NCBI RefSeq assembly: GCF_900119185.1
Contig: NZ_FPJE01000012.1
Span: forward strand, 62,001-126,000
Length of the DNA: 64,000 nt
DNA from: Sinomicrobium oceani
Lineage (GTDB): Bacteria; Bacteroidota; Bacteroidia; Flavobacteriales; Flavobacteriaceae
Reading direction: 5' to 3'
Below are positions 1-25,807 of the stretch, piece by piece (positions within the stretch are counted from its first letter, which is position 1; each line of letters starts with the position of its first letter). The position numbers and the translations under genes are program-made. The notes beneath the pieces were generated by a model that saw only the letters and a program-made list of their open reading frames with translations, was not told where the DNA came from and did no database searches.

Positions 1-372
1 GTGGAGTATAAAGGAACGGGAATTTTAAAACAGAAACAAACCATAAGGATCGAACCCGGGACCATGACGGTATATGAAAAGAGTACCGGAAGGATGATCT
101 CCGAAAAGGTCAATATAGAGGACTATTTTTCCTGGAAAGAGGGAGTGCTTATACTGCGCAACTGCAAATTGGGGGATATCGTGAAGAAGCTCTCCAGGTA
201 TTATAATATCGCTATAGAAATAGGAGATGAAGATCTTGCAAAGGAGACGTTTTCCGGGTATCTCGACCTTAAGGAAAGTGTAGAAAGTGTCATCAGCACT
301 ATCGGTAAAACCACGGATATCCGCTACTTTGCTACCGAAGAGAACAATAAATGGATTATTAACCAAAAATAG
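1..372 (+). CDS. FecR-family anti-sigma factor, C-terminal fragment (cut by window edge)
   Basis: Only the last ~120 residues are inside the window; the reading frame is open to base 1, so the GTG at base 1 is not a trustworthy start. The C-terminal half (about residues 40-120) has the pattern of the DUF4974 domain of FecR proteins: WKEGVLILRN, then a helix GDIVKKLSRYY, then FSGYLDLKESVESVISTI. It closely parallels the end of the complete FecR at 15719-16879. FecR proteins sit in the inner membrane, receive a signal from a TonB-dependent receptor and control an ECF sigma factor. It is followed by a SusC with an STN signalling domain, so it is the presumed regulator of locus 1; its sigma gene would lie left of the window. 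Confidence 0.85.
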   Translation: MEYKGTGILKQKQTIRIEPGTMTVYEKSTGRMISEKVNIEDYFSWKEGVLILRNCKLGDIVKKLSRYYNIAIEIGDEDLAKETFSGYLDLKESVESVISTIGKTTDIRYFATEENNKWIINQK

Positions 373-492
373 GATTATGAAACTGTAATTGTATACAAAG
401 AAACCGGAAGATGCGCCAACACCTCCCGGTAGAAAGAAATTAACCTTACTGTGCTTAACCAGTAAAAATTAATCAACAAACACAACAAAAGT

Positions 493-3400
493 ATGAATAA
501 AAATGCTAACCTCGGCTTCACGGGGGAGTTTCCCTTATGGAGATACTTGTGGACTGCAATGAAAACTTTTCTTCTCTTTATCTCGATCGGACTGTCATCG
601 GTCTATGCCAGTCATTCTTCCGCCCAGACCCGGTTGGATATGAATGTCAAAGAGCTTACCATCAGGGAAGTGTTCGAGGAAATACAGCAAAACAGCGAAT
701 ACATCTTCTTTTATAAAGACGGAACGCTCAACGATGATAAAAAAGTGTCTCTCACCGCTAAAGAAGCAACAGTAGAAGAGATATTGACCATACTTTTCGG
801 GAATACTGATCTTACTTATGAACTGGACGGAAGACAGGTGATCGTACGCAAGAAGCCGGCAAAAATACCGGAATCCGAGCGTGAATTTCAGGGGATAGAG
901 GTTTCCGGTAGTATAAAAGATCCGGAAGGTGTGCCGTTGGCCGGAGCCAATGTTCTGGAAAAGGGAACAACCCACGGGGTACAAACCGATTTTGACGGAA
1001 ATTATACCCTAACGGTCTCCGGGGAAGACGCCGTATTGCTCGTTTCTTATATGGGGTTCATCAGCAGGGAGGTTCCCGTAGCCGGGCAGACCGAAATAGA
1101 TATTACATTACAGGAGGATGTTTCCGATCTTGAGGAGGTTGTTGTCGTGGGTTATGGTACCCAGAAAAAAGTAAACCTTACCGGTGCGGTAAGCCAGGTT
1201 ACGGCAGAAGCTATTGAGAACCGTCCTGTGGCCAATATGGGGCAGGCTTTGCAAGGTGTACTTCCCAACCTGAACATCAATATTCCTAACGGAAATCCCA
1301 ATGCTACACCCTCTTTTAATGTGAGGGGAGGTACTTCATTATCCGGTAGTGAATTTGTCAACGGGTCACCTTTTGTCCTGGTAGACGGTGTACAGATGGA
1401 TATCAATATGCTGAACCCGGAAGATATAGAGAGCATTACCGTGCTTAAAGATGCCGCTTCCGCAGCAATCTACGGTGCCCGTGCAGCCAACGGAGTTGTT
1501 CTGGTAACCACAAAAAAAGGAAAAAAATCGCAAAAATCGCAGATCACCTATAGTAATTCCTTCCAGTTCAACCGCCCTTCGGCCCGTCCGGATCTGTTGG
1601 ATGCCTACACCATACAGGAGGCCGCTATAAAAGCAGTAGAATATGAAAACCGGACCCCTTCCGGTGATATGTATGACAAGCTTGACGCCATTCGGGCGTA
1701 TATGGACAATCCGCAGGAAACACCACCTTACATTATGAGCCCGGGAGGAAGCATTATATGGGTCGCCAATACAAGACCCTATGATGAGGCGGTGCGCAGT
1801 GCTTCGCCCATGATGAAGCACAACCTGAGCCTGCGCGGAGGATCGGAGAAAAACACGTATATGATATCGCTCGGATACCAGGATCAGGAAGGGATATACA
1901 AAATAAATACGGACAAGTTCAAAAGATATAATGTGCTGGTCAATGTAGGATCTGAAGTCAATGACTGGCTCGGTATGGACTACCAGGTATCCTGGAACAA
2001 CACCGTGTATAAAGAGCCGATCAGTCCCGGCGGAAAGGGAAGCTGGTGGTATGCCATGGCCCAGGAGCCCTTCCGCAATATCAATATGCCGGTTAAAACC
2101 TCTGCGGATTCTCCCGTAGGCGAGATGTACACGGATAATATTCTTTCTTTTATGAGTTATGGTTCCAACAGAAAAACCGTGAATGAGCGCTTGCTGATGA
2201 AGATAGCCCCTACGGTAAAACTCCTGGATGGCTGGAACCTGAAAGCTGATTTCTCATATATGTCCAGGAACTACAGAACAAAAGAAGTATTACCCGAATT
2301 GTGGCGGGTGGATACCGACTGGAACAACCTGACCAATGCACATACCAATCCTTCCTACATCGACAAGACGAGCGACCGTACCGATCAGTACACGCTCAAT
2401 GTGTATTCCAATTACGACGTATCGCTCGGAAAACACGATATCTCCCTGCTGGCCGGATTTAACCAGGAGTGGTTGAAGTATGAACACCTCAGGGGCAGGG
2501 GAGAAGGAATCCTGTCGCCCAATATTCCCGTGATCAATCAGACAACCGGAAATGAATATGCTTATGACGGAGAAAGTCATTGGGCCGTTAGGGGGGCGTT
2601 TTACCGGATAACTTACAATTATGATAATCGTTATTTACTGGAATCCAACGGAAGGTACGACGGAACGTCGAGGTTTCCGGCCGATCGGAGATTCAAGTTC
2701 TTCCCGTCCATTTCCGGGGCGTGGAGATTTTCGGAAGAGGCGTTTAGCGGATTCCTGAAACCCGTATTTGACGAACTGAAATTCAGGGCAAGTTACGGTA
2801 GTCTCGGTAACCAGAACGTAACCAATTATATCTATATTCCTTCGTATGGGACGGTATCCCAGGTACAACATTTGTTTGGTGGCATACGCCCCATAGGGAT
2901 CACTCCCCCGGGACTGGTAGATCCTAACCTGACCTGGGAAACATCGACAACCCTCGATTTCGGGATGGATATGGCGCTTTTTAATAACAGGCTGGGCCTT
3001 TCATTCGACTGGTACAGGAGAAAGACAACGGATATACTCATCGCCGGAGATAAATTCCCTGCTGTACTGGGAGCTTCCTCACCCACCAAAAACTCGGGAG
3101 CCATGCAAACCGAAGGCTGGGAGCTGGAAGTGAAGTGGCGCGACCAGTTTCGGTCCGGTTTCCGGTATGATGTAGCACTTAACCTCTGGGACTATCAAAG
3201 TAAAGTAGTGGCTTTTAACGGAAACCCGAATAAACTGCTGAGCACGTTATACGAAGGTCAGAAAATGGGAGAGATCTGGGGGTACGAAACTTCCGGGATT
3301 TTCCAGACCGAAGCAGAAATAGAAGCTGCTCCGAGCCAGCACCTGCTGAATTCTCAATGGTTCCCCGGAGATATCCGTTATACCGATCGGAACGGGGACG

Positions 3401-3936
3401 GTGAGATCAGCCCGGGTGAAAATACGGTGGATAATCCGGGAGACCGTAAAATCATCGGTAACAACACACCCCGCTATCAATTCGGATTTACGATGAACGC
3501 TTTCTGGAAAAATTTTGACCTGAATATCTTTTTCCAGGGCGTAGGGAAAAGAGATTACTGGATTGATGGCAATCAGAGTCTGTACTGGGGAGGATTGTCC
3601 AACGGGGCAGGGACCTGGGAGGTTTACAACAACACCTGGACTCCCGAGCGAAGAGATGCCCATTTTCCGGTATACAAGAACAAATCGGCAAACAGGCTGA
3701 CACAGACGAGGTTTATCCAGAACGCAGCTTATATACGACTGAAAAACCTTGCTATAGGATATACGCTACCCCGGGAGATCAGTGAGAAAATCCGGGTAGA
3801 ACGATTACGGTTGTCCGCTTCTGCCTATAACATCTGGGAATATACCAAAGTCCCTGACGTATTCGACCCCGAACTGATGAGTGCGGATTACCCCATGATG
3901 CGCTCTTTTGCACTTGGCTTACAGGTAACCTTTTAA
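493..3936 (+). CDS. SusC/RagA-family TonB-linked outer membrane transporter with STN domain (locus 1)
   Basis: An 1147-residue outer membrane TonB-dependent transporter that forms the barrel under a SusD lid and imports large oligomers. Layout: signal segment ending near SSAQT (residue 46; Met23 is an alternative start), STN/secretin-N signalling domain ~47-120, carboxypeptidase-like regulatory domain ~135-210 (TDFDGNYTL), TonB-box-like segment EEVVVVGYGTQKK ~213-226, plug domain with VLKDAASAAIYGARAANGVV, then a barrel ending in aromatic LGLQVTF. The STN domain is the part that signals to FecR, consistent with the FecR fragment just upstream (120 bp). SusD follows after 21 bp. Substrate is not readable from sequence; neighbouring proteases and glycosidases suggest glycopeptides or glycans. 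Confidence 0.95.
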   Translation: MNKNANLGFTGEFPLWRYLWTAMKTFLLFISIGLSSVYASHSSAQTRLDMNVKELTIREVFEEIQQNSEYIFFYKDGTLNDDKKVSLTAKEATVEEILTILFGNTDLTYELDGRQVIVRKKPAKIPESEREFQGIEVSGSIKDPEGVPLAGANVLEKGTTHGVQTDFDGNYTLTVSGEDAVLLVSYMGFISREVPVAGQTEIDITLQEDVSDLEEVVVVGYGTQKKVNLTGAVSQVTAEAIENRPVANMGQALQGVLPNLNINIPNGNPNATPSFNVRGGTSLSGSEFVNGSPFVLVDGVQMDINMLNPEDIESITVLKDAASAAIYGARAANGVVLVTTKKGKKSQKSQITYSNSFQFNRPSARPDLLDAYTIQEAAIKAVEYENRTPSGDMYDKLDAIRAYMDNPQETPPYIMSPGGSIIWVANTRPYDEAVRSASPMMKHNLSLRGGSEKNTYMISLGYQDQEGIYKINTDKFKRYNVLVNVGSEVNDWLGMDYQVSWNNTVYKEPISPGGKGSWWYAMAQEPFRNINMPVKTSADSPVGEMYTDNILSFMSYGSNRKTVNERLLMKIAPTVKLLDGWNLKADFSYMSRNYRTKEVLPELWRVDTDWNNLTNAHTNPSYIDKTSDRTDQYTLNVYSNYDVSLGKHDISLLAGFNQEWLKYEHLRGRGEGILSPNIPVINQTTGNEYAYDGESHWAVRGAFYRITYNYDNRYLLESNGRYDGTSRFPADRRFKFFPSISGAWRFSEEAFSGFLKPVFDELKFRASYGSLGNQNVTNYIYIPSYGTVSQVQHLFGGIRPIGITPPGLVDPNLTWETSTTLDFGMDMALFNNRLGLSFDWYRRKTTDILIAGDKFPAVLGASSPTKNSGAMQTEGWELEVKWRDQFRSGFRYDVALNLWDYQSKVVAFNGNPNKLLSTLYEGQKMGEIWGYETSGIFQTEAEIEAAPSQHLLNSQWFPGDIRYTDRNGDGEISPGENTVDNPGDRKIIGNNTPRYQFGFTMNAFWKNFDLNIFFQGVGKRDYWIDGNQSLYWGGLSNGAGTWEVYNNTWTPERRDAHFPVYKNKSANRLTQTRFIQNAAYIRLKNLAIGYTLPREISEKIRVERLRLSASAYNIWEYTKVPDVFDPELMSADYPMMRSFALGLQVTF

Positions 3937-3957
3937 CAACGTCTAAAACATTTTTCA

Positions 3958-5742
3958 ATGAAGAAACTATATATTATCCTGACACTGTGTACCGGGTTTT
4001 TTGTAGGGAGTTGCAACGATGATTTTATGGAGAGATATCCTCTCGATCAGATCACCGATGAAAACTTCTGGCAGACAGGAGAAGATCTCGAATTGTATTG
4101 TAACGATCTCTATGCCCAGTATATCCGAGGGTTCAGCTACGGATGGGGGCAGAATAACGTCAGCCCTTATGGGTATAACGAAGCCACTATTCCCTATGGA
4201 GATGTCATTACCGACAATGCAGCTCCGGATTCGTATTCGCGGGTAACGAACAATGAATACAACGGCCATATTACCGGAGGGAGCGGAAGCGGTGGCTGGA
4301 GCTGGGGAAATATGAGAAAACTCAATTATTTTCTCGACAATTATCAGCGGGGAGACGTCGATCCGGAAGTGAGAAATGTATATCTGGGTGAAGTGCTTTT
4401 CTTTAAGGCATGGGATTATTTCGAAAAAGTAAAGCTTTTTGGTAATGTACCCTGGTACAACCATGTTCTGGAGACCGATTCGGAAGAATTATATGCACCG
4501 CGTACCCCGAGAGCGGAAGTGATGGATTCCGTAATGAAAATACTCGATGATGCCATTGCCTACCTGCCGGAAAAAGGAGCACAAAAGCAAGGAAGGATCA
4601 ATAAAGATGTCGCTTTGCATCTCAAATCACGTATAGGACTTTTCGAAGGGACGTACCGGAAATATCACAATGAGCTCGGTCTTGATGGCAGCGCATTTCT
4701 GGAAGCCAGTGTAAAAGCTTCGGAAACGTTGATGGCCTCCGGATATTCTATATATACTACGGGAAATACCGATGCGGATTACAATGCGCTTTTCGCACAG
4801 TATTCTTATGCCGATAACCCGGAAATTATTCTGTGGAAAGAATATAGTGCCAATGAAAACCTGGGGGTAGCTTTCAGCAGGTATTACGCCCAAAACCTTC
4901 GTCATCGTCACGGAGCTACCCGGGATCTCGTGGATTCTTATTTGTGTATTGACGGGCAACCGATTGCGAACAGTCCCCTTTTCGAGGGAAAGGATTCCAT
5001 ACAACAGGAAATGCTCCATCGCGACCCGAGATTGCGGCAAACGATATGTAATTTCGGAGAATATGCCCTGGCCGAAGGAGCAATGGGAGCCGATAATGCT
5101 CCCTTGCCCAATATTCCCGGCCTTAGCGGGAACAAATGCCCCACGGGATACCGGGTCGGTAAATGGTTCTTTAATGAACCGGATGACTGGGGGCGACTTA
5201 CGAATGGTATGCAGGCCGCTCCCGTATTCCGCTATGCTGAAATTCTGCTCAATTATGCCGAAGCCAGGTATGAACTGGGGCAACTATCACAGGGTGTTAT
5301 AGACCAGACCATAAACGTGATAAGATCAAGGGTAAATATGCCTGCGCTGCAGTTGGGAAATATACCATCCGATCCGGTTTTGGACCAGGATTATGCGACC
5401 TATTGCGATTATATCCCCGAACCCGTACTTCGTGAGATACGCAGGGAAAGACGTATAGAACTGGCTTTTGAAAATTTCAGATGGGATGACCTGATGCGCT
5501 GGAAGGCAGGAAAATTTCTTGAAAAACCGGTAGAAGGTATCAAGTTTGTACAGGAACAATTCCCTTCCGTAGTCGTCGGGACCGATGTGTTTCTGAGCTC
5601 CGAAGGCTATATTTTACCGTATTTCCAGGTGCTGCCCGACGGACGTACCTGGGATGACCGGCAATACCTGTTCCCGATTCCCATAGAAGACCTGGTGCTC
5701 AATCCCGAACTGAAACAAAACCCGGACTGGGAATCGAACTAA
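3958..5742 (+). CDS. SusD/RagB-family nutrient-binding outer membrane lipoprotein (locus 1)
   Basis: A 594-residue surface lipoprotein that caps the SusC barrel and binds substrate. Lipobox VGSC with Cys19, followed by the typical NDDFMERYPLDQITDENFW opening. TPR-like helices follow (FFKAWDYFEKVKLFG, APRTPRAEVMDSVM), then RYAEILLNYAEARYELG and, near the end, the hallmark EIRRERRIELAFENFRWDDLMRW. It lies 21 bp behind susC, the normal operon arrangement. The paralogue in locus 2 is 549 residues and only moderately similar, so the two loci probably bind different ligands. Confidence 0.95.
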   Translation: MKKLYIILTLCTGFFVGSCNDDFMERYPLDQITDENFWQTGEDLELYCNDLYAQYIRGFSYGWGQNNVSPYGYNEATIPYGDVITDNAAPDSYSRVTNNEYNGHITGGSGSGGWSWGNMRKLNYFLDNYQRGDVDPEVRNVYLGEVLFFKAWDYFEKVKLFGNVPWYNHVLETDSEELYAPRTPRAEVMDSVMKILDDAIAYLPEKGAQKQGRINKDVALHLKSRIGLFEGTYRKYHNELGLDGSAFLEASVKASETLMASGYSIYTTGNTDADYNALFAQYSYADNPEIILWKEYSANENLGVAFSRYYAQNLRHRHGATRDLVDSYLCIDGQPIANSPLFEGKDSIQQEMLHRDPRLRQTICNFGEYALAEGAMGADNAPLPNIPGLSGNKCPTGYRVGKWFFNEPDDWGRLTNGMQAAPVFRYAEILLNYAEARYELGQLSQGVIDQTINVIRSRVNMPALQLGNIPSDPVLDQDYATYCDYIPEPVLREIRRERRIELAFENFRWDDLMRWKAGKFLEKPVEGIKFVQEQFPSVVVGTDVFLSSEGYILPYFQVLPDGRTWDDRQYLFPIPIEDLVLNPELKQNPDWESN

Positions 5743-5909
5743 TACGAGGCAAACAGCAGATTTTCCTGTAAAAGCATTTTTTAAAACCCTGTGTAAAACG
5801 GGCAGGTCTGCTATGGTCCGAATTATGATTTTTAATCCCACATTACCACGGCTTTACTCGGTAAAAGTCCTTTTAACCAACTATTGTACAACCTTTTAAA
5901 ACTTTAAAG

Positions 5910-6317
5910 ATGAAAAAAACAGTTTTTATTTTACTCGTTTCTTTTTTATGTCTGTCCTTCGGAAGCAAGGAAGATAGTGGAACAACAGAAAATTTACCAC
6001 AGGAAGAATTTACCGTTGTAGTGGAAGGATCAACCCAATATCCGTATAATAATCGTTTCAGATTACTTCACAACGGGGCTTATATAGACATATGTGACCC
6101 CGGCAGCCAGTTTTATATTCCTATTTCGGATGTGGAATGGGTTGTAGACATGGGAGCTGCAAGTGTTCGTCCGGGACAAGAAGATACCTGTACACCCAGT
6201 ATAGGAGTACAATGGGATAATACCACTCCACGCCCGTTTGTAGTAGGTGTCTATGTACAATTTACCTATGGGGGGCAATCTTATACGGCAGGGACAACAT
6301 ATACTGTAAATCCTTAG
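5910..6317 (+). CDS. Small exported protein of unknown function in locus 1
   Basis: A 135-residue protein with a hydrophobic N-terminal signal (KKTVFILLVSFLCLSFGSKED). The remainder is rich in Tyr, Thr, Gly and Val (FVVGVYVQFTYGGQSYTAGTTYTVNP), suggesting a small beta-sandwich, and has two Cys (ICDPG and DTCTP) that could form a disulfide. The signal ends LSFGSKEDS where neighbours have a lipobox such as LSC; TTC (Phe) and TGC (Cys) differ by one base, so a lost lipid anchor is possible. It sits between susD and the metzincin gene and has no counterpart in locus 2. I do not recognise the family; a small surface binding protein is only an inference. Confidence 0.65.
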   Translation: MKKTVFILLVSFLCLSFGSKEDSGTTENLPQEEFTVVVEGSTQYPYNNRFRLLHNGAYIDICDPGSQFYIPISDVEWVVDMGAASVRPGQEDTCTPSIGVQWDNTTPRPFVVGVYVQFTYGGQSYTAGTTYTVNP

Positions 6318-6393
6318 AGTATGATGTCATCCGGCTTCGGTAAACAAATCAAAGGAGATCTTAACCTTAATCAATAACCAAAACCTTTAAATT

Positions 6394-7776: not shown

Positions 7777-7838
7777 GAAACAGGAACAACCCGTATTGAG
7801 ATATAACCCATTCTTAACCCATTAAAATAGGATAAACT

Positions 7839-9203: not shown

Positions 9204-9306
9204 CAGCTGTCCCGATGATACTGCTTTCCGTCGTATGTGCCGAAAAGAAAAGCAGGAAGATAAACTCGGATCCTATAAGATTTTGAGTTAGTTAGTTTAT
9301 TTCCAT

Positions 9307-9338
9307 GGCTCTCCTCCTTTTGATCCGGGAGGGGAGCC
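9307..9338 (+). terminator. Hairpin after the locus 1 protease genes
   Basis: Inverted repeat of 11 bp (9307-9317 with 9328-9338, one G-U wobble in the RNA) with a 10-nt loop. The following T-run is poor (TTATG), so it may be a weak terminator or a 3' end-stabilising hairpin separating the protease genes from the glycosidase operon. Confidence 0.5.
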
Positions 9339-9353
9339 TTATGTAAACATAAA

Positions 9354-9361
9354 TACTTTTG
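9354..9361 (+). promoter_or_regulatory. TAnnTTTG -7 element before the glycosidase operon
   Basis: TACTTTTG matches the Bacteroidetes -7 consensus TAnnTTTG and lies 68 bp before the GH2 start. No good -33 TTTG is visible at the usual spacing. The shared TGTGTTCG motif starts inside it (9360). Confidence 0.4.
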
Positions 9362-9377
9362 TGTTCGAACCCATTTT
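9360..9377 (+). repeat. TGTGTTCG motif, copy 1 (before GH2-GH20-GH29)
   Basis: TGTGTTCGAACCCATTTT, shared almost exactly with 14862-14880 (TGTGTTCGTACCCGTTTTT) and more loosely with 15699-15717. It stands between the hairpin ending locus 1 proteases and the glycosidase operon, so it may be a site read by the ECF sigma factor or another locus regulator. Confidence 0.45.
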
Positions 9378-9429
9378 GAAAATTACTTTATATATTGCAG
9401 AAATAACCTGACTAAATTTAACCGTTAAC

Positions 9430-11559: not shown

Positions 11560-11574
11560 TAAAAGACGTATCAC

Positions 11575-13173: not shown

Positions 13174-13176
13174 AAC

Positions 13177-14619: not shown

Positions 14620-14654
14620 TTCGTATAATCCGGTCGACGAACCTGACAGGTGGC

Positions 14655-15561: not shown

Positions 15562-15698
15562 AAAGTCTTTCCGATATCTTTATATGGTGTTGATTATCAG
15601 TTTTAAACACCTTGAGGAAAGATTGCTCTCCGAAAAAAATCAAAAAATATTCCCCAAAGAATAGTACTAAAGGAGTTTACAACTGTATTATATATAAA

Positions 15699-15717
15699 TG
15701 TGTTCGAAAACATTTTT
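15699..15717 (+). repeat. TGTGTTCG motif, copy 3 (just before fecR)
   Basis: TGTGTTCGAAAACATTTTT, ending one base before the ATG at 15719. Weaker match than copies 1 and 2 (AAAAC in place of ACCC). Its position argues that FecR starts at 15719 and not at the ATG at 15698. Confidence 0.35.
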
Positions 15718-15718
15718 A

Positions 15719-16879: not shown

Positions 16880-16898
16880 CATTTAAAACTCAAAAATT

Positions 16899-16922
16899 AT
16901 GAAACAAGTATCAGGAGGTTAG
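16899..16922 (+). other. Seven-codon mini-ORF in the susC leader of locus 2
   Basis: ATG AAA CAA GTA TCA GGA GGT TAG (MKQVSGG) with an A-rich upstream stretch typical of start sites here. It lies 20 bp after the fecR stop and about 40 bp before a hairpin. It could be a leader peptide or chance. Confidence 0.25.
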
Positions 16923-16962
16923 TCTTTGTCCGCAAGCAGAGAAGCCATTTCACAATACATAA

Positions 16963-16994
16963 AAATCGGAAAATGTTGGGCCATTTCCCGATTT
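16963..16994 (+). promoter_or_regulatory. Hairpin in the fecR-susC leader of locus 2
   Basis: 12 of 13 bases pair between 16963-16975 and 16982-16994 (single A-C mismatch) with a 6-nt loop TTGGGC. It is not followed by a T-run, so it is more likely a processing or stability element that sets susC level apart from fecR than a simple terminator. Confidence 0.5.
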
Positions 16995-17046
16995 GCAGAA
17001 AGGTGATTCAATCAAAATTTAACCACACTTAAACACGATTAAAGGT

Positions 17047-20000
17047 ATGAAAAAAAATCTTTCCGAAAGGAAGGGCAGGATGCTGTATGTCAAATTCAAA
17101 GCAAAGATCAGGATCAGCACGATACTGTTGAGCATCGTACTTGCAACAGCACAGGCCAATACTTCCTATTCTCAGAAAAGCAGGGTTACCCTGGACATGA
17201 ACGATATTACCATAGCACACTTCATAGATGCTGTAGAAGGCCGGAGCGACTATCATTTTGTATACAAAACAAAGGAAGTAGATCTCGAACGTAAAGTATC
17301 CGTTAAAGCGATTGATGAAGACATCACTTCGATACTCGACCGGGTGTTCGTAAATACGGGAACGGTGTATCGTATTGTGAAGAAACAAATATTTCTTACG
17401 GCCGGTAAAACGGAAAAAAAGCAGGAAGACCGTTCGATAACAAACCAGGAGCTCCGGGTGAGCGGGATGGTAAAAGATGAAAACGGGACGGCCCTTCCCG
17501 GGGTTTCTGTCATAGAGAAGGGCACACAGAACGGTACGTCAACCGATTTTGACGGAAATTACGAGCTGTCGGTTTCCGGATCCGGAACGGTATTATCATT
17601 CAGTTACATCGGGTTCGTGACCCAGAATGTTACTGTCGGGCAGGAGACAGTCATGGATGTGGTACTTAAGGAAGATATATCCGAATTGGATGAGGTTATT
17701 GTTGTGGCCTACGGTACACAGAAAAAGGAGAATCTTACCGGTGCAGTTGTGTCGGTAAGCAGCGAGAAACTTGCTAACAGGCCAGTGGCTTCTACGCAGA
17801 ATGCACTTCAGGGAATTGCACCGGGTGTTACTGTATTGCAACGTCCCGGAGACGTGGGGAGAAATTCGGACGGAACCAGCGGTAATACCGGAGGGATAAC
17901 TATCAGGGGTCGAAGCAATCTGGGGTCTCCGGGTCCTATGTATATCATAGACGGTATTCCCGCTACGTCCCAGGAATTTGCTTCTTTGAATGCCAATGAT
18001 ATTGCCAATATGTCCGTGCTGAAAGACGCTTCTTCGGCGGCGCTTTACGGCTCCCGTGCTGCAAATGGCGTTATCGTAGTTACCACCAATAGAGGTGGGG
18101 GAGAGAAAGCGACCATACAGTTCAATACCAGTTACGGATGGCAGTCTGCGACAAAATTACCTCAATACACCAACGCAGCCGATTATGCTGCTTTATATAA
18201 TGAGGCGCTTGGAAATGCAGGTAGAGATCCGTTCTATACCCCCGATCAGATCCGGAAGTTTGCCGATGGTTCCGAGCCCGATCTTTACCCGGATACGAAC
18301 TGGTACAAAACCGTTCTTCACGCTGCCGCACCGCAAAAAGAAGCCAGTTTGAGCATTAGTGCTCCGGGAAAAGTCACCAATTACTATCTCGGACTCACCT
18401 ACTTTGACCAGGAATCTCTCATTCCGGGAAAAAAGCAGGATCGTATTGTCGCCAAATTGAATACCGAAAGTAATATTGTTGAGGATATATTGAAGGTTGG
18501 TACAAACTTTTCATTTATAAAACAGGATTTCGACCGCGATGGTGGAAATATGAGTTGGATAGAACTCAACAGATCGCTGCCTACGTCAGTAGTACGTCAG
18601 TCCAACGGGGAATGGGGATCGGTAGACGGAGGGGTGGTCAATGCCCAGACGGCACAACGCAATCAGCTCCGTATTCTGGAAGAAGGAGGAAGTGGCTGGG
18701 ACAGGGATAATTATCTCCAGCTCGCAGCCAATGCCTCGCTGACACCCCTTGAGGGATTGTCTGTTAACGGATTAACATCCCTCAAATATACCCATTCCAA
18801 TTCCTGGTCTTTTACAAGCACTATAGATCCTATAAATAACTTTCTCACCGGGGCCCCTATAAATTCTACAAGGGTAACACCTAACGAAATGACAGAATAC
18901 TGGCGTAAACGGCAGGAGTTCCTTATTCAGGGAACCGTAGATTACGAGCGTCGTTTCGCAGAAGACCATTATGCGAAGATCACATTGGGAGCAAGCCAGG
19001 AAAGCAATATTTATCGAACGGCATTTATAGGAAGGAAGAATTTTCCGAATAACGATATGGAGACTGTTGGCAGTGGTTCCGGAAATGCGGAAGACATCAG
19101 TTCGGACAGTGATGGGCAAGCTAACAGGAGCAACCAGGAGGAATGGGCCATGCGTTCCTTTTTCGGGAGGCTGAATTACACGTTTGCAGACAGGTATCTT
19201 CTCGAGGCTAATACGCGTATAGATTATTCTTCCCGTTTTCACCCCGATCAAAGACGGGCGGTCTTCCCTTCTTTTTCTGCAGGCTGGATCGTTTCCCGGG
19301 AGTCTTTCATGAATAATATTTCCTGGCTGGATTACCTGAAGGTCCGTGGTTCATGGGGATCACTGGGAAACCAGAATGTCGTACGAATAGGTAATTACTT
19401 TGATGTACTCAATGTGGATTATGCCTATAATTTCGAAGATACCGCTCAGGGCGGGGCCTGGCAGAGTAGCGGATCTAACATTTCCGCAACCTGGGAAAAG
19501 GTAAAGATGCTGGATATCGGTCTTGATATTAATCTGTTTGGGAACAGGGTAAGTATAGTCACCGATTATTATGTAAAGAAAACAGAAGGTATACTCACAC
19601 AGTTACCCGTACTTCGTACATACGGATTTCCGGATAGCGGAATTCCTTATGTCAATGCTGCCGAAACCCGTAACCGGGGATTTGAATTTGCCGTTAATTA
19701 TTCCGACCGGATCGGGGAACATTTTAGATTTACCGTAGGCGGTAACCTCTCTACCATAGATAATGAGATTCTGAGCCTGGGACAGGGAGTACAAGAGCGG
19801 ATAAGCAGTTACTGGATAGAACGGGTCGGCGGATCAGTCGGGGATTTTTACGGTTATAAAGCCGATGGGTTGTTCCGTGATGCTGCCGATGTGGAAAACC
19901 ATGCCTACCAGTCCGCAGCAACGGCCCCGGGAGATATCAAATACAGAGATATCAACGGGGATGGGGTTATCAACGAAGAGGATCGTACAGTCATAGGTAA

Positions 20001-20496
20001 TGATGTTCCCTGGTTTAATTATGGCTTTAACCTGAGTGCGGAGTACAAAGGCATTAGCCTGGAAGTGCTTACTTACGGTGTGGGAAATGTCAAAACGTAC
20101 CTGGCCAACGAAGCCTCTTTTCCCTTCTTTAACGGAGCAGGGGTAAAAGAAGAATTGAAAAATCGCTGGACTACTGAAAACCCCGATCCGGACGCAGATT
20201 TCCCCAGACTTCTGTTATCCCAGGACGGAACACAGAACTACAATAACATTTCTTCGTTCTGGCTCTTTAACGGGGCATACTTCCGGGTGCGTTCCATTAC
20301 CCTGGGGTATACGTTTCCGGAAGAAATCAGCAAAAAACTGGGAATGAAGATGCTTCGTGTTTACGGTACGTCAAATAATCCGCTCACTTTTATGGCCGAT
20401 AAACGCCTGGCAGATTACGATCCGGAACTATCCTCCGGAAGAGGTGGATATCCCGGGATCAAAACCTTTTCCCTCGGATTCAATTTCAGATTTTAA
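17047..20496 (+). CDS. SusC/RagA-family TonB-linked outer membrane transporter with STN domain (locus 2)
   Basis: An 1149-residue paralogue of the transporter at 493-3936. Signal segment to about residue 43 (ANTSYSQ), STN domain ~45-115 (LDMNDITIAHFIDAVEGRSDYHFVY), carboxypeptidase-like regulatory domain ~135-210 (STDFDGNYELSVSG), TonB-box-like EVIVVAYGTQKKENLTGAV near 216-232, plug with VLKDASSAALYGSRAANGVI, then a barrel ending FSLGFNFRF. It is expected to import the ligand and also signal to the FecR/sigma pair just upstream. SusD follows after 30 bp. Confidence 0.95.
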   Translation: MKKNLSERKGRMLYVKFKAKIRISTILLSIVLATAQANTSYSQKSRVTLDMNDITIAHFIDAVEGRSDYHFVYKTKEVDLERKVSVKAIDEDITSILDRVFVNTGTVYRIVKKQIFLTAGKTEKKQEDRSITNQELRVSGMVKDENGTALPGVSVIEKGTQNGTSTDFDGNYELSVSGSGTVLSFSYIGFVTQNVTVGQETVMDVVLKEDISELDEVIVVAYGTQKKENLTGAVVSVSSEKLANRPVASTQNALQGIAPGVTVLQRPGDVGRNSDGTSGNTGGITIRGRSNLGSPGPMYIIDGIPATSQEFASLNANDIANMSVLKDASSAALYGSRAANGVIVVTTNRGGGEKATIQFNTSYGWQSATKLPQYTNAADYAALYNEALGNAGRDPFYTPDQIRKFADGSEPDLYPDTNWYKTVLHAAAPQKEASLSISAPGKVTNYYLGLTYFDQESLIPGKKQDRIVAKLNTESNIVEDILKVGTNFSFIKQDFDRDGGNMSWIELNRSLPTSVVRQSNGEWGSVDGGVVNAQTAQRNQLRILEEGGSGWDRDNYLQLAANASLTPLEGLSVNGLTSLKYTHSNSWSFTSTIDPINNFLTGAPINSTRVTPNEMTEYWRKRQEFLIQGTVDYERRFAEDHYAKITLGASQESNIYRTAFIGRKNFPNNDMETVGSGSGNAEDISSDSDGQANRSNQEEWAMRSFFGRLNYTFADRYLLEANTRIDYSSRFHPDQRRAVFPSFSAGWIVSRESFMNNISWLDYLKVRGSWGSLGNQNVVRIGNYFDVLNVDYAYNFEDTAQGGAWQSSGSNISATWEKVKMLDIGLDINLFGNRVSIVTDYYVKKTEGILTQLPVLRTYGFPDSGIPYVNAAETRNRGFEFAVNYSDRIGEHFRFTVGGNLSTIDNEILSLGQGVQERISSYWIERVGGSVGDFYGYKADGLFRDAADVENHAYQSAATAPGDIKYRDINGDGVINEEDRTVIGNDVPWFNYGFNLSAEYKGISLEVLTYGVGNVKTYLANEASFPFFNGAGVKEELKNRWTTENPDPDADFPRLLLSQDGTQNYNNISSFWLFNGAYFRVRSITLGYTFPEEISKKLGMKMLRVYGTSNNPLTFMADKRLADYDPELSSGRGGYPGIKTFSLGFNFRF

Positions 20497-20526
20497 CCTC
20501 TTATTAATGGTATAAAGCGTAAAAAA

Positions 20527-22176
20527 ATGAAAAAGACAATACTATATATGGGAACAGTGCTGCTGATGCTTACCGTATCCTGTTCCGATGATTTTCTGGA
20601 GAGACCACCCCTTGATGATGTTTCGGAAGAAACCTTCTGGAAAACAGAAGAAGACCTGTACAAAGCGGTAAACGGTGTTTACAGCCAGTTACCGGCAGAA
20701 GGTTTTATCTACGATGACGGAGCCTCCGATAACGCCCATGCCCAGTATCCATGGGAAAGTACAGCAACTGTGGTTTCTGCCGGAAGTATTATTACGGCGG
20801 ATGATGCCGGATGGAATTATGAAGATAAACGTCGTTGTAATTACTTCCTGGAAAATGCGGACGCCGTGGAAAACGCCGATCCGGATTTGCTGAACAGGTA
20901 TAAAGCCGAAGTCCGTTTTATCCGGGCGTACTCTTATTTCAGGATGATGTGTAAGTTCGGTGATATTCCTTTAGTAACCAGTACGCTGGATATAGAAGAT
21001 GTAAATATTCCCCGGACACCGAGGGCCGAAGTCCTGGATTTTATCATAACCGAACTGGAAGATATCTCCGAAATGCTGCCGGTTACTTATGCCGGAGGAA
21101 AACCTGACGAAAAGGGGAGAATTACCAGGGGGGCTGCCCTGGCCCTTAAAGCGAGGGTACACCTTTACGAGGGACAATGGGAGGCTGCTGTCGGTGCCGC
21201 AGAGAAGGTAATGAATCTGGGAATTTACGAGTTGTTCAAAATCGATTCGGAAAGTGAAAGCGATTTGAAGGACAATTACGACGAATGGGTAGATTTTGAC
21301 GGTGAAGAAGACAGGAACAACTTCAGGCTGGGATTACGTAGTTACGAAGCACTTTTTCACGAAGAATATGAGGGAAACAGTGAAGTGATCCTGGACAGGC
21401 AGCGTATAGCACAGATCGATGATAATTTTCTAAACACTTATCTGCCGCCAGGTTCTATCGGCGGATGGAGTTCCGTGACCCCGACACAGGAACTGGTAAA
21501 CAGCTATGAAAGTTATAAGACCGGCGAACCGGCGGAGCTCCCTTCTGCAGAACAAAGAGCAACCTGGTATGATAATGATAATCCGGAGTTCAGAGAAGAA
21601 TTCCGAAACCGTGATCCGCGGTTATATGCTACCATTATGTTTCCGGGATCACCTTGGAATGCGATAGAAGACGATTTTACTTTCGAGTGGATACAGGGAG
21701 CCTCCAATATGTCCCAGACCGGGTATAATTTCAGAAAGCTGGTAGACCCTAAGATATACCGCGAAAATATCGGAAACTATACGAATGTGATCCTCCTCCG
21801 TTATGCCGAAGTCTTACTGACCTATGCCGAGGCCAGAAACGAATGGAGTGGGCCGGACGCTACAATATATGATGCTTTGGATGATATCAGGCAGAGATCC
21901 GGAATGCCCCCGGTGGATCGTAATTTATACAATACCCGTGAGAAATTGCGCGAATTTATCCGTAATGAACGCAGGGTAGAGCTTGCCCTGGAAGGACATC
22001 GCTATATGGATATCAGAAGATGGCAGATTGCCCCACAGGTCATGAAGGATATCAAAAACCTGAGGAATACTGTTGCACAGGACCGTGTGTGGGATGACAA
22101 ATTATATCTTATGCCCGTACCACAATCGCAACGCGATTTGTCTGATAACCTGCTGGAACAGAATCCGGGATATTGA
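20527..22176 (+). CDS. SusD/RagB-family nutrient-binding outer membrane lipoprotein (locus 2)
   Basis: A 549-residue surface lipoprotein (lipobox TVSC, Cys19; then SDDFLERPPLDDVSEETFW). TPR-type helices (KAEVRFIRAYSYFRMM; IPRTPRAEVLDFIITEL), RYAEVLLTYAEARNEW, and the C-terminal hallmark NERRVELALEGHRYMDIRRW. Partner of the SusC 30 bp upstream. A strong terminator at 22238 separates it from the protease genes, so these are probably expressed at a lower level or from their own promoter. Confidence 0.95.
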   Translation: MKKTILYMGTVLLMLTVSCSDDFLERPPLDDVSEETFWKTEEDLYKAVNGVYSQLPAEGFIYDDGASDNAHAQYPWESTATVVSAGSIITADDAGWNYEDKRRCNYFLENADAVENADPDLLNRYKAEVRFIRAYSYFRMMCKFGDIPLVTSTLDIEDVNIPRTPRAEVLDFIITELEDISEMLPVTYAGGKPDEKGRITRGAALALKARVHLYEGQWEAAVGAAEKVMNLGIYELFKIDSESESDLKDNYDEWVDFDGEEDRNNFRLGLRSYEALFHEEYEGNSEVILDRQRIAQIDDNFLNTYLPPGSIGGWSSVTPTQELVNSYESYKTGEPAELPSAEQRATWYDNDNPEFREEFRNRDPRLYATIMFPGSPWNAIEDDFTFEWIQGASNMSQTGYNFRKLVDPKIYRENIGNYTNVILLRYAEVLLTYAEARNEWSGPDATIYDALDDIRQRSGMPPVDRNLYNTREKLREFIRNERRVELALEGHRYMDIRRWQIAPQVMKDIKNLRNTVAQDRVWDDKLYLMPVPQSQRDLSDNLLEQNPGY

Positions 22177-22237
22177 TAAAAAACGTAAAAACAGATTAGA
22201 ATGGGCCGGATTGCCGGTTCAGAGTTAGTTCGTTGAG

Positions 22238-22273
22238 AAACCACCTCCTGCCAGTTGACGGGAGGTGGTTTTT
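22238..22273 (+). terminator. Intrinsic terminator after susD of locus 2
   Basis: Perfect 11-bp stem AAACCACCTCC / GGAGGTGGTTT (22238-22248 with 22261-22271), 12-nt loop, then T-run. It lies inside the locus, between susD and the metzincin gene. Confidence 0.88.
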
Positions 22274-22338
22274 AACCCCGAATGGAATTTCCCTTATCAT
22301 ACTACCTGTGAAAAATTTAACCACTAAACATTATAATT

Positions 22339-23919
22339 ATGAAAACAAACACCATTTTCAGTGTAATAGCTTGCTTGGCTATGGTTTTATTTTATTCCTG
22401 CGTACCGGACGATGCTGTTCCGGAACACTCGGGAAATCCTGAAGAACCTGTTTTTTCTTCGGAACATCCTTATAATCTCAATGTCATATACTTTGTTTCG
22501 AATGATCGGGAAGTGAATGCGGACTATGAGCAACGGATCAGTAAAATTATGCTCGAAGGGCAGCGTTTTTTTGCGGACTGGATGGAACACTGGGGCTATG
22601 GTTCCAAAACGTTCGGGTTGCTCAGGGATGAAAATATGCAGCGTGTAAAAATACATCTTATCCATGGAACAAAGAGTTCTGACAGTTACCCTTACGAGGG
22701 TGGAGCTTCTGCTGTAAAAGAAGAAGTAGAGGCCTATTTTTCGGAACATCCGGAAGAAAAAACCAGTGATCATAACCTCATTATCTGTGCTGTAAACGAG
22801 AAGCTTGATGAAGGAGAAGACATGGAAGTTGGCGTTCCTTTTTACGGGATAGGCAGAGATGCTTATGCCCTCGATTATCCTGGAATGAGTTATGACAATC
22901 TCGGTGTGGGGGGAGATGTGGGCTGGAAAGCAACAGTATGGATAGGAGGGTTGTATCATGAAATGGGACATGGACTGAACCTTCCGCATTGCGGTTCGAA
23001 GGTAAGCGAATCCGAAAGTGATGATTACGGTACGTCGCTTATGGGGGCAGGTAATTCCACATTTGGTATCAGTCCTACTTTCCTGGCACAATCCAGTGCA
23101 GCCATAGTGAATAACTGTCAGGTTTTCTCTGAAGAGAACGGAATGTTTTATACGGATACAAATGCATATATAGACAGATTGAGTGCCGGTTATGAAAATG
23201 GTGATATTATCGTTACCGGATCTTATGTGAGTGATGTTCCGGTGACTGATATTACGTATTATCATAAAGTCGGCACAGACTCCGGGGGATACCGGGCCAT
23301 AACATGGGTAGGAGAACCTACCGGAGAACAAAGCTTTCAAATGAGAATGCCCATATCCGAATTTCAGGAAAGGGGAAATGAGGAATATACGTTTAGCATT
23401 ATTCTCCATCACGAAAACGGAAACAATACCTGGACTGATTTTAGCTATGCTTTTCAATCGGATATTCCGGATATCCATATAAGTATCGGACAGCAAAATG
23501 TATATGACAAAACAAATTGGCAGATAATTGATGTTAGTTCCGAGGAAACCGTAAATGAAAACGGAGCGGTTGCCCATGTACTGGACGGAAACCCCCAGAC
23601 CTACTGGCATTCCCGCTGGAATACGGATACGCCCGGATATCCTCATTATTTCGTAGTAGATATGAAAGAAGAACTTCAGTCAAAGGGATTTGTTATATAC
23701 CAGAGAGTAGGAAGGCGTGCCATCAATGCATATGAAATAGAAGTAAGCAGCGATAGTATGGCCTGGGAAACCCTGGCAGAAGGTTCATTGGAGGATACTT
23801 ATGAACAGGTGATAACACTTGCCGGGGAAACGAAATTCCGTTATTTCCGTTTTACCGCAAAATCCTCTCATGACGGGGAACCGTTTGCTGCGTTGGCAGA
23901 GATCGGCGTATATCACTGA
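22339..23919 (+). CDS. Metzincin-type zinc metalloprotease lipoprotein with C-terminal F5/8C (CBM32-like) domain
   Basis: A 526-residue lipoprotein (FYSC, Cys21) paralogous to the protein at 6394-7776. Zinc site HEMGHGLNLPH at ~207-217 and Met-turn SLMG at Met235, followed by a beta-rich middle domain. The last ~135 residues from NWQIIDVSSEE to EIGVYH form an F5/8-type C (discoidin) domain, with WHSRW and the conserved ending FAALAEIGVY. Such domains commonly bind galactose or N-acetylhexosamine. The domain closely resembles that of the neighbouring M60 protease, so both enzymes are probably targeted to the same glycan. Confidence 0.9.
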   Translation: MKTNTIFSVIACLAMVLFYSCVPDDAVPEHSGNPEEPVFSSEHPYNLNVIYFVSNDREVNADYEQRISKIMLEGQRFFADWMEHWGYGSKTFGLLRDENMQRVKIHLIHGTKSSDSYPYEGGASAVKEEVEAYFSEHPEEKTSDHNLIICAVNEKLDEGEDMEVGVPFYGIGRDAYALDYPGMSYDNLGVGGDVGWKATVWIGGLYHEMGHGLNLPHCGSKVSESESDDYGTSLMGAGNSTFGISPTFLAQSSAAIVNNCQVFSEENGMFYTDTNAYIDRLSAGYENGDIIVTGSYVSDVPVTDITYYHKVGTDSGGYRAITWVGEPTGEQSFQMRMPISEFQERGNEEYTFSIILHHENGNNTWTDFSYAFQSDIPDIHISIGQQNVYDKTNWQIIDVSSEETVNENGAVAHVLDGNPQTYWHSRWNTDTPGYPHYFVVDMKEELQSKGFVIYQRVGRRAINAYEIEVSSDSMAWETLAEGSLEDTYEQVITLAGETKFRYFRFTAKSSHDGEPFAALAEIGVYH

Positions 23920-23974
23920 TAATAATGCTGTTTTACAGCCCGGATCCTATTATTAACCCTTAATCCAAATACTT

Positions 23975-25753
23975 ATGAAATGTTCTTATGAAAAACTAAA
24001 GTGGTTTGTATTGTTCCTGGTCATTGCCGGGAGCATATTTTCCTGTGACGTACCCTCCGCAAACGAACCGGAAGAACCCTCGGTTCCCGGTGAAGAAGAG
24101 ATTACTGCCGAAGGGGTCCTGGAGTTTGAAGAAACACCTTCCGGAACGGCAGAGGCCGCAAGATTGGGACAATCGAACCCGGCCTCTGATTTTTTGCCTA
24201 CAGGTTTTTATCTTCCGCCGGATACCGAACTGGTGGTAAAGGTCGATCCCGTAGCGTCCGGGAGCGGAACACCGGTATTGCTCATCGGGTCGTATTCCCG
24301 GTATGAAGCCAAGTGGAATCCGACACAAGTTTCATTGACAGCAGGTATCAATACGATAACCGGAGACGAATACGGTGGTATAATATACGTGAGATATCAT
24401 GCCGGCGAAGGTAGTGCGGCCTCCGGAAAAGTCCGTATCGAATTTATGAACGGGCATCAGCCCATGCCGTATTTCGTTTACGGAGAAACGACCAACGGGC
24501 AGTGGCAGACCATGCTCGATACCTGGACGGAAGCTCCGGATGTACTTCTGGTAAGCAATAAGGCTATGATCGTAGCATCAAGGGATAAGGCCTTGGAATA
24601 CCGCGATGAAGATCAGAACAGCTTGCTTGCCATTGCAGAACAGATACTGGATGCGGAAGCAGCAATAAGCGGTCTCGACGGTTCTGCTCCGGAACATCAA
24701 AGAAATGTACATCGTCTGTTGATGACCGAAACCGATATGGAAGACACATTCATGGCTGCTACATGGTACCGGACCTGGTATCACAGGGATGTTGTCAATA
24801 ACATCCTTACGGTAGAAGGACTCGGACAGGATGGATGGGGTCCCTGGCATGAACTGGGACACATGCACCAACAGGGATCCTGGACCTGGGACGGACTGGG
24901 AGAAGTTACGGTTAACATCTATTCCCTCGCTGCGGAAAGAGCCATGGGGGTAACTCCTTCCCGGCTGGTGAGGGATGGAGTCTGGTATGCGGTGACAGAT
25001 TATCTTGCGCTTCCCGATGAAGAACGGGACTTTAACAGTAGTGCTGCCGGACTGTTTGTAAGGCTCGGAATGTTTCAGCAATTGTGGTTGGCCTACGGAG
25101 ACAGTTTTTTTCAGCAGTTGCATAAGGAGACACGGGAAGAACAGGCGGATCCGGGGAGCACGGAAGCAAAAATGCGCTATTTTATGCTGAAAACATGTGA
25201 GATCACCGGAAACGATCTTGGAGAATTTTTCCGGAAATGGGGATTGAAGGTCAGTTCGTCCGTTTATGATGAGATATCGGCATTGAACCTTCCTGCTCCT
25301 GAAGAAGATCTTACAAAACTCACCGATGATCCGGACTGGGAAAGCAGATGGCTCATTGCCGGTTACAGCTCGCAGGAAACGGGAGGCGAAAATGGTAGAG
25401 CTTCTAATGCCATAGACGGAGATCCGGCTACATACTGGCATTCGCAATGGTCGGGAGATAACCCTGCAGTGTACCCGCATTATATAGCAGTGGACATGAA
25501 AGAAGTAACCACCCTAAACGGTTTTACACTGACACAGCGTGACGGACAGCGCAAAGTGAAGGATATAGAATTGCAGGTAAGCAATGACAACAATAATTGG
25601 GAAAGTATCGGTGATTATGTGCTGGATGACACCGAAATGGCCCAAAACATAGATTTGCCGGAAAGCAGATCGTTCCGGTATTTTAAAGTAATTATGAAAT
25701 CTGCCTACGACGGACTTCAATTTGCTGCATTGGCAGAAGTTACGGTATATTGA
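23975..25753 (+). CDS. M60 (enhancin/mucinase-like) metalloprotease lipoprotein with C-terminal F5/8C domain
   Basis: A 592-residue surface lipoprotein (FSC, Cys24). The catalytic motif HELGH at 292-296 with Glu310 fits the M60 signature, within GWGPWHELGHMHQQ. An F5/8C domain occupies ~453-592 (DWESRWLIAGYSSQE ... FAALAEVTVY). M60 enzymes cleave the backbone of O-glycosylated proteins and often carry carbohydrate-binding domains. It lies 55 bp after the metzincin gene and is followed by a terminator, closing locus 2. Confidence 0.93.
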   Translation: MKCSYEKLKWFVLFLVIAGSIFSCDVPSANEPEEPSVPGEEEITAEGVLEFEETPSGTAEAARLGQSNPASDFLPTGFYLPPDTELVVKVDPVASGSGTPVLLIGSYSRYEAKWNPTQVSLTAGINTITGDEYGGIIYVRYHAGEGSAASGKVRIEFMNGHQPMPYFVYGETTNGQWQTMLDTWTEAPDVLLVSNKAMIVASRDKALEYRDEDQNSLLAIAEQILDAEAAISGLDGSAPEHQRNVHRLLMTETDMEDTFMAATWYRTWYHRDVVNNILTVEGLGQDGWGPWHELGHMHQQGSWTWDGLGEVTVNIYSLAAERAMGVTPSRLVRDGVWYAVTDYLALPDEERDFNSSAAGLFVRLGMFQQLWLAYGDSFFQQLHKETREEQADPGSTEAKMRYFMLKTCEITGNDLGEFFRKWGLKVSSSVYDEISALNLPAPEEDLTKLTDDPDWESRWLIAGYSSQETGGENGRASNAIDGDPATYWHSQWSGDNPAVYPHYIAVDMKEVTTLNGFTLTQRDGQRKVKDIELQVSNDNNNWESIGDYVLDDTEMAQNIDLPESRSFRYFKVIMKSAYDGLQFAALAEVTVY

Positions 25754-25776
25754 TATGCTTAACCTATAATGTTTGT

Positions 25777-25807
25777 AAAGGCCCGGAGATGATCCCGGGC
25801 CTTTTTT
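25777..25807 (+). terminator. Intrinsic terminator closing locus 2
   Basis: AAAGGCCCGG (25777-25786) pairs with CCGGGCCTTT across an 8-nt loop, followed by a T-run, 24 bp after the M60 stop codon. Confidence 0.92.

Follow-up and report, generated by a model that had tools for sequence, protein, structure and literature searches.

Two SusCD loci with OgpA-like metzincins and M60 peptidases in Sinomicrobium oceani, probably directed at O-glycosylated proteins, and a recurrent clade of beta-gamma-crystallin OgpA relatives

We examined a 64,000-nucleotide stretch of the Sinomicrobium oceani genome (contig NZ_FPJE01000012.1, positions 62,001 to 126,000; hereafter the window), which carries two neighbouring loci built around SusC-type transporters and SusD-type proteins (SusCD), each including an OgpA-like metzincin gene and an M60 peptidase gene. 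Genes were called from the list of open reading frames (ORFs) and from Pfam, NCBIfam and Protein Data Bank (PDB) sequence matches. The order FecR-SusC-SusD-metzincin-M60 occurs twice, all on the + strand and with the metzincins placed by PDB matches, which confirms what an earlier note, made from the sequence alone, had described. The unit of locus 1 up to its M60 gene occupies 1-9203, and locus 2, counted from its extracytoplasmic function (ECF) sigma gene, occupies 14965-25753 (Table 1). The ECF sigma gene that had been noticed before the second locus is there, and a further one, belonging to the first locus, lies upstream of the window. The genome (5.02 Mb) has two M60 genes, both inside the window, and three OgpA-like genes.

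Locus 1 is a SusCD locus by its tandem susC-susD genes, its linked glycoside hydrolase genes of families GH2, GH20 and GH29 and its linked ECF sigma and FecR genes. The glycosidase genes are co-directional with the genes upstream of them, with gaps of 226, 15 and 3 bases. Locus 2 also has tandem susC-susD genes and an ECF sigma/FecR pair. The idea that proteases and not glycosidases form the core of the system holds for locus 2 and fails for locus 1, where the three glycosidase genes at 9430-14619 had been overlooked. The STN signalling domain is present in the SusC of locus 1, while that of the locus 2 SusC stays under the Pfam cut-off (22.5 vs 28.4 bits). The locus 2 SusD had 3qnk as its top PDB match (E = 1.5e-58) and also matched 5cjz, the BT4246 SusD structure (E = 9.2e-22); 5cjz was not among the PDB matches of the locus 1 SusD at E 1e-5. 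The 135-amino acid (aa) ORF between SusD and metzincin of locus 1 had no Pfam or NCBIfam match and no PDB match up to E 10, and its model had a predicted local distance difference test score (pLDDT) of 46; its sole relative in the scanned loci is in another Sinomicrobium genome (G002, locus L019), where it lies 3' of M60. One terminator-like hairpin follows locus 2, to be read against 27 such sites found in the whole stretch vs 19.1 expected; the same scan found none on the + strand between 14619 and 14965. A promoter scan gave 20 sites vs 30.9 in shuffles.

Table 1 Features of the two loci, with positions in the window unless a separate flanking sequence (L003) is named.
Feature	Position	Strand	Evidence and remarks
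ECF sigma gene, locus 1	L003 11341-11937		Upstream of the window
FecR-like anti-sigma gene, 3' end, locus 1	1-372	+	FecR_C E 2.1e-15; whole gene at L003 13338-14372
SusC-type TonB-dependent transporter, locus 1	493-3936	+	Plug, barrel and STN over cut-off
SusD-type protein, locus 1	3958-5742	+	SusD_RagB E 1.2e-44
135-aa protein, signal-peptide-like start	5910-6317	+	Between SusD and metzincin of locus 1
OgpA-like metzincin, locus 1, probable lipoprotein, C-terminal beta-gamma-crystallin domain	6394-7776	+	6z2d E 1.6e-53; Protein S domain 1prr E 1.8e-25; 6z2q fold match; HELGHGLGLSH
M60 peptidase, locus 1, probable lipoprotein	7839-9203	+	Peptidase_M60 E 1.5e-41; HEAGH at residue 294
GH2 glycosidase, beta-galactosidase/glucuronidase type	9430-11559	+	Pfam GH2 N, middle and C; best PDB match 3fn9 E 1.1e-229
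GH20 beta-hexosaminidase	11575-13173	+	E 2.6e-100
GH29 alpha-L-fucosidase	13177-14619	+	E 7.3e-75; best PDB match 6hzy E 1.8e-147
ECF sigma factor, locus 2	14965-15561	+	TIGR02985 over cut-off; Pfam
FecR-like anti-sigma factor, locus 2	15698-16879	+	FecR and FecR_C
SusC-type transporter, locus 2	17047-20496	+	Pfam; STN under cut-off
SusD-type protein, locus 2	20527-22176	+	SusD_RagB E 2.1e-53
OgpA-like metzincin, locus 2, probable lipoprotein, C-terminal F5/8C (CBM32-like) module	22339-23919	+	6z2d E 1.5e-58; sialidase module 2bzd E 5.1e-17; Pfam F5_F8_type_C
M60 peptidase, locus 2, probable lipoprotein, C-terminal F5/8C (CBM32-like) module	23975-25753	+	Peptidase_M60 E 2e-52; F5_F8_type_C
Terminator-like hairpin 3' of locus 2	25777-25804	+	10-pair stem, 7 GC, then T-run; consensus match only

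Both metzincins fell under every Pfam cut-off (best PF12044, 19.9 and 19.1 bits vs 27), and the TIGR03952 identity first proposed for them was rejected, as neither protein had an NCBIfam match at E 0.001. They are instead relatives of OgpA of Akkermansia muciniphila, which both matched in the PDB sequence search (6z2d, Table 1), and the zinc site HEXXHxxxxxH is complete in both. An AlphaFold model of the locus 1 metzincin (22 sequences, pLDDT 80.9, weaker from residue 371 on with block means of 36-83) matched the OgpA structures first (6z2q, E = 1.2e-32, template modelling (TM) score 0.84 of target) and after them AMUC_1438; the matches of the model's C-terminal domain were bacterial beta-gamma-crystallins. 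OgpA-type sequence and zinc site were therefore found in both metzincins, and the OgpA fold in that of locus 1. The M60 peptidases scored 143.2 (locus 1) and 178.8 bits (locus 2) against a PF13402 cut-off of 25.8 bits, keep the HEXXH zinc motif as HEAGH and HELGH, and had 4fca and 5ev7 as best PDB matches, followed by solved Bacteroides caccae O-glycopeptidases; no binding module was found in the locus 1 M60. All 10 aligned OgpA relatives have a cysteine where the signal peptide ends, and one was also seen, by eye, in both M60s and both SusDs; acidic residues after this lipoprotein cysteine would fit surface export in Bacteroidota. By eye, GH20 and GH29 apparently start with ordinary signal peptides, as expected for periplasmic enzymes.

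We consider it likely, from gene content and protein similarity, that the window holds two SusCD uptake loci for O-glycosylated proteins, which would be cut at the surface by an OgpA-type metzincin and an M60 peptidase. Such a target had been suggested earlier and is supported because in both protease groups the members that have been tested cleave O-glycoproteins, the metzincins matching OgpA (in locus 1 by fold also) and the M60s matching solved O-glycopeptidases. Surface lipoproteins of these two unrelated zinc-protease families would cut O-glycoproteins beside O-glycans, perhaps in complementary ways, and SusC/SusD would import the resulting glycopeptides. Signalling by ECF sigma, FecR and STN is established for SusC-type transporters; here, the STN domain of SusC would relay a ligand signal derived from glycoproteins via FecR to the ECF sigma factor, switching the locus on. 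After import, the glycans would be shortened in the periplasm by the locus 1 fucosidase, hexosaminidase and GH2 enzyme; locus 2, whose own proteases carry galactose-binding-type modules, may draw for this on locus 1 or on other genes. The complete zinc sites, the signal-peptide cysteines, the co-directional glycosidase genes of locus 1 and the frequent GH29 neighbours of beta-gamma-crystallin OgpA genes described below also speak for this reading, which is modelled on the one put forward for BT4240-50 (PMC11992087).

We compared the loci with five other genomes of the genus (G001-G005; G003 is S. pectinilyticum and G005 S. weinanense, and the window's own genome is G000). Here and in all larger genome sets, M60 genes were counted at genome level with the Pfam model. 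Locus 1 was found in 3/5 of the genomes (G002, G003 and G005), with genes 57-90% identical and metzincin and M60 adjoining, so that the two protease genes adjoin in 4/4 genomes with locus 1; this conservation is beyond chance. G001 had no OgpA match and no M60, and G004 a distant OgpA relative only. Locus 2 was found in G003, and parts of it in G002 and G005. In S. weinanense and G002, though not in the window, locus 2 is followed by a third set of ECF, FecR, SusC and SusD genes (L206, L207, L018): in G002 this set comes after OgpA2, and in G005, which keeps SusCD2, the orthologue of M60_2 (74% identical) lies 3' of it. M60_2 may have belonged to this third set, which would then have been lost in G000 and G003; insertion of the set in G002 and G005 is equally possible.

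The two loci had been described as adjacent and paralogous. They are adjacent, and their paralogy reflects an old divergence: gene by gene, the two units of the window are 22-44% identical to each other, whereas genus orthologues of both loci are 50-90% identical (the outlier being the 135-aa ORF at 34%). OgpA1 belongs to a clade of beta-gamma-crystallin forms (12 rows, Shimodaira-Hasegawa-like approximate likelihood ratio test (SH-aLRT) support 100) and OgpA2 to another clade (10 rows, SH-aLRT 98) with genes from Belliella, Pedobacter, Sphingobacterium, Mediterranea and Dysgonomonas. M60_1 groups with the G582 gene described below and with Sphingobacterium genes (14 rows, SH-aLRT 99), and M60_2 with other Sphingobacterium genes (6 rows, 99). 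It should be noted that the OgpA and M60 trees were quick ones made without bootstrap and that the program flagged long branches in them. Since OgpA1 and OgpA2, like M60_1 and M60_2, fall in different clades, the loci did not arise by duplication in place; a recent tandem duplication was rejected on these grounds and on the identities above, and sequence comparison indicates that the loci are old, separate lineages.

The abundance of the protease pair was determined in three samples: 395 genomes of the phylum (our own included), 72 genomes with named OgpA loci and 151 genomes of the family of genome G396 (Rhinopithecimicrobium faecis, so the family is probably Sphingobacteriaceae). The named loci (n = 79) came from the best 80 of 83 relatives, and 78 of them lie in the 72 searchable genomes (L037 was left out). 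Neighbourhood counts used models made from the window's own genes, which can miss distant M60, glycoside hydrolase and Sus genes. The phylum sample had M60 in 9 genomes and OgpA in 9 at E 0.001, with near-complete model coverage in 3. M60 was present in 38/72 of the OgpA-bearing genomes and yet lay ≤ 3 kb from only 4/124 OgpA matches of > 700 bases (S. pectinilyticum twice, S. weinanense and Dysgonomonas hofstadii). Within ≤ 10 kb the number was 7/124, where random placement of the 89 M60 matches expects 0.85; the Sinomicrobium cases among these near pairs come from the query's own genus. In the family sample, near full-length OgpA was found in 14 genomes (17 with any match at E 0.001) and M60 in 32. 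Co-occurrence in other genomes had been set beforehand as a test, and by genome it was found, with M60 in 9/14 OgpA genomes vs 23/137 others (Fisher P = 0.0003, uncorrected for kinship and with the sample centre, G396, having both). Side by side, the two genes are rare outside the genus: M60 stands beside 1/19 near full-length OgpA genes of those 14 genomes, in G582, and in the genomes searched the adjoining pairs outside Sinomicrobium are this one and that of one Dysgonomonas genome. The order in G582 is SusC-SusD-SusC-SusD-OgpA(beta-gamma-crystallin)-M60-GH29-GH20-GH29 (confirmed with Pfam), and the same SusCD-OgpA-M60 order in a family other than Flavobacteriaceae counts in favour of the uptake of O-glycosylated proteins.

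Several candidate pairs were discarded: in Sphingobacterium L075 and L091 the genes are on opposite strands and 7-8 kb apart (with a stop in both M60 matches and one OgpA match of G494), and in Zhouia L082 the distance from OgpA to M60 is 9.7 kb. The pair as a widespread class was likewise rejected on the counts from the three samples. Adjoining OgpA and M60 genes turn up more than once but seldom, with M60 in the role of an optional insert.

A number of observations weigh against the uptake of O-glycosylated proteins by these loci. There is no glycan-active enzyme among the locus 2 genes at 14965-25753 (ORFs and Pfam), and in neither locus was an enzyme recognised that would cleave alpha-GalNAc. 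Within the genus, GH20 is part of locus 1 in the window and G005 and absent from locus 1 of G002 and G003, and the locus 2 pair is not fixed, G002 being without the second M60 and G005 without the second OgpA. Around the nearest M60 genes outside the genus (six stretches from Sphingobacterium and one from Pedobacter), SusC and SusD stand beside M60 in 1/7 stretches (L216). The pectin-type gene setting of the Dysgonomonas pair and a GH88/GH43 locus just upstream of the window, both described below, point in the same direction. Finally, the glycan pocket of OgpA, formed by Y116, F166, K198, W199, N235 and Y236 (PMC7518263), is partly changed: locus 2 keeps 4/6 residues (Y116, F166, V198, W199, N235, S236) and locus 1 3/6 (Y116, F166, N198, L199, N235, T236). 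Because these residues are only partly kept, the glycan recognised by the window's metzincins, or even their need for one, may differ from that of OgpA, and for the same reason we do not claim OgpA's core-1 specificity for them. K198 of OgpA touches the glycan through its main chain only (PMC7518263).

The firmest new feature is the clade of OgpA relatives ending in a beta-gamma-crystallin domain, which usually lie in SusCD loci with a fucosidase, have M60 as an optional neighbour and show an altered glycan pocket. The C-terminal module was beta-gamma-crystallin in 10 of the 79 named loci, F5/8C in 61 and neither in 8, and all beta-gamma-crystallin forms in the set make up one OgpA clade, with one domain change on the tree. 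Over all named loci (72/79 of which are > 19 kb long), SusC was found in 48/79 and SusD in 38/79. SusD lay ≤ 1.2 kb upstream of OgpA in 7/10 beta-gamma-crystallin loci vs 8/69 others, and GH29 was found in the fetched flanks of 7/10 vs 3/69 (one of these 3 being the locus 1 GH29 beside L026), although several loci are close relatives and the significance of both contrasts is overstated by this. The seven GH29-bearing loci came from Sinomicrobium, Echinicola, Pedobacter, Rhinopithecimicrobium and Fodinibius (Balneolota); GH29 was not found in the flanks of L092, L097, L104 and, outside the 79, L212 (G636). A further locus, in G639, has the order SusC-SusD-SusC-SusD-OgpA(beta-gamma-crystallin)-GH29-GH20-GH29-GH2, without M60. 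M60 adjoins OgpA in 5/15 beta-gamma-crystallin loci (the window, G002, G003, G005, G582, G639, G636 and 8 named loci outside the genus). In the alignment, W199 was found in 0/13 beta-gamma-crystallin rows and N198 in 12/13 (one S. weinanense gene was entered twice), whereas the F5/8C rows have W199 in 43/69 and K198 in 32/69. The pocket residues thus vary in this wider set, unlike in the homologues aligned in PMC7518263, among which the available text calls them conserved. We offer as a tentative and rather doubtful proposal that the beta-gamma-crystallin OgpA is the hallmark of a locus type for glycoprotein uptake conserved in Bacteroidota and Balneolota (SusCD, optional M60 and fucosidase/hexosaminidase/GH2), in which the protease with N198 and L/Y199 would read a non-core-1 O-glycan, OgpA and M60, differing in glycan specificity, would cut the same fucosylated glycoprotein like two pairs of scissors, and the peptide would also be imported as food.

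Foraging on proteoglycans or mixed glycans, in which the proteases would strip protein from an animal matrix for glycan enzymes and the cargo would be mainly glycan and not glycopeptide, is an unlikely explanation, and it is the one that survives best among the alternatives. The third OgpA-like gene of the genome stands in a SusC-SusD-OgpA series followed by two heparinase II/III genes (L022 4552-15233, G000:C30), its S. weinanense counterpart (L021) precedes a polysaccharide lyase of family PL8, and a PL8 lyase is also present elsewhere in the S. oceani genome. Putative M60 genes of a B. caccae chondroitin locus have been read as protein-stripping by the authors who described it (PMC12269599, in the text available). 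Against this, the Pfam matches of loci 1 and 2 include neither a lyase nor a sulfatase, and a locus 2 that shows no glycan enzyme leaves little but protease products to import.

It is less probable still that the targets are plant or algal cell-wall glycoproteins and that the nearby pectin-type genes belong to the same diet. Many genera with OgpA loci are presumably known from soil and water, which would suit such a diet. In Dysgonomonas hofstadii (L084 311-20765), M60-OgpA occurs with GH28, a pectinesterase, two GH88, GH2 and GH29, and the SusCD locus just upstream of the locus 1 ECF gene (L003 1383-11023) encodes DUF4861, GH88, GH43 and a GDSL esterase. However, in both protease families the members that have been assayed depend on mucin-type O-glycans, as far as the available texts state (PMC7518263, PMC13355702), and the set of GH20, GH29 and GH2 fits glycans of GalNAc/GlcNAc. 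In addition, M60 precedes OgpA in Dysgonomonas, and the examined stretch, which has a DUF5123 protein at its left edge, contains no SusC/SusD, although one may be encoded further to the left. The O-glycosylated protein coat of other Bacteroidota as a target of predation or recycling is very improbable: general O-glycosylation, often with fucose, occurs in Bacteroides and flavobacteria and GH29 is tied to the beta-gamma-crystallin OgpA clade, but we know of no GalNAc linkage in the general O-glycans of Bacteroidota and nothing in the sequence of the loci points at bacterial substrates.

Some other genes were noticed. The third OgpA locus of the genome suggests that OgpA-type proteases may serve in proteoglycan loci. 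In Dysgonomonas L084, OgpA is followed by a hybrid two-component regulator, GH88, GH2 and GH29, and the pectin-type genes come before M60. The genome has three BNR_2 matches, two of them strong. In the window, 29028-31463 encodes a TonB-dependent receptor of the OMP_b-brl_3 type, apart from the SusC genes, and 40920-46117 carries in a row a VgrG-like protein (Phage_base_V, Phage_GPD), a Tle1-like phospholipase, a DUF2931 protein and a further protein, probably a type VI secretion effector set.

M60 genes in SusCD loci and flavobacterial OgpA homologues are already known. In the available texts, SusCD with M60 is described in PMC11992087 and PMC13355702, the latter stating that 15/16 B. caccae M60 genes lie in polysaccharide utilization loci (PULs), and homologues of OgpA are noted in Zhouia, Imtechella, Elizabethkingia and Chryseobacterium (PMC7518263). 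With these precedents, and with the pair being rare, the earlier note's suggestion of a distinct class outside the PUL scheme does not stand. In the literature titles and abstract openings searched, we found no OgpA-M60 pair in a SusCD locus and no OgpA with a beta-gamma-crystallin domain. The tested O-glycopeptidases of the literature named here come, in the texts available, from gut bacteria. Enzymes of this kind are in demand as tools for reading mucin-type glycoproteins; loci 1 and 2 bring both tested protease families together in SusCD loci of a flavobacterium. A new cleavage specificity would be directly testable in the beta-gamma-crystallin OgpA clade, with its changed pocket and recurrent fucosidase partner. 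Should loci 1 and 2 indeed import glycopeptides, they would offer another system in which to follow what becomes of the peptide, a question not settled for the BT4240-50 locus.

The BT4240-50 model, as given in the available text of PMC11992087, has a surface M60 that cuts, SusCD that imports glycopeptides and periplasmic enzymes that trim them, although, by its authors' own account, binding of glycopeptides by SusD was still to be demonstrated. SusCD, an M60 lipoprotein (on the surface in that system and probably so here), GH2 and ECF sigma/anti-sigma are common to that system and locus 1. BT4240-50 has one protease, GH109, a GalNAc kinase and a CBM32 binding protein, and that text describes no OgpA-type metzincin, GH20 or GH29, unlike locus 1, where no GH109 or GalNAc kinase domain was found among the Pfam matches. 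The B. caccae O-glycopeptidases belong to the M60 family as in the window; they come from a gut organism, and no partner OgpA is mentioned in the available text (PMC13355702). The B. caccae chondroitin PUL BcPUL25 likewise has O-glycopeptidase-type (M60-like) genes inside a glycan PUL, with a lyase and GH88 set that is closer to the third OgpA locus of this genome (PMC12269599, in the text available). AMUC_1438 is a distant metzincin O-glycopeptidase with a binding module, like the window's metzincins, 20-21% identical to that of locus 1 in the fold match and described in the available text as strictly Tn-specific (PMC9513282). Another comparison is OgpA itself (AMUC_1119 of A. muciniphila; PMC7518263, in the text available), with which the window's metzincins share sequence, zinc site and, for locus 1, fold, and from which they differ in a partly changed pocket, an added beta-gamma-crystallin or F5/8C module and their place in SusCD loci.

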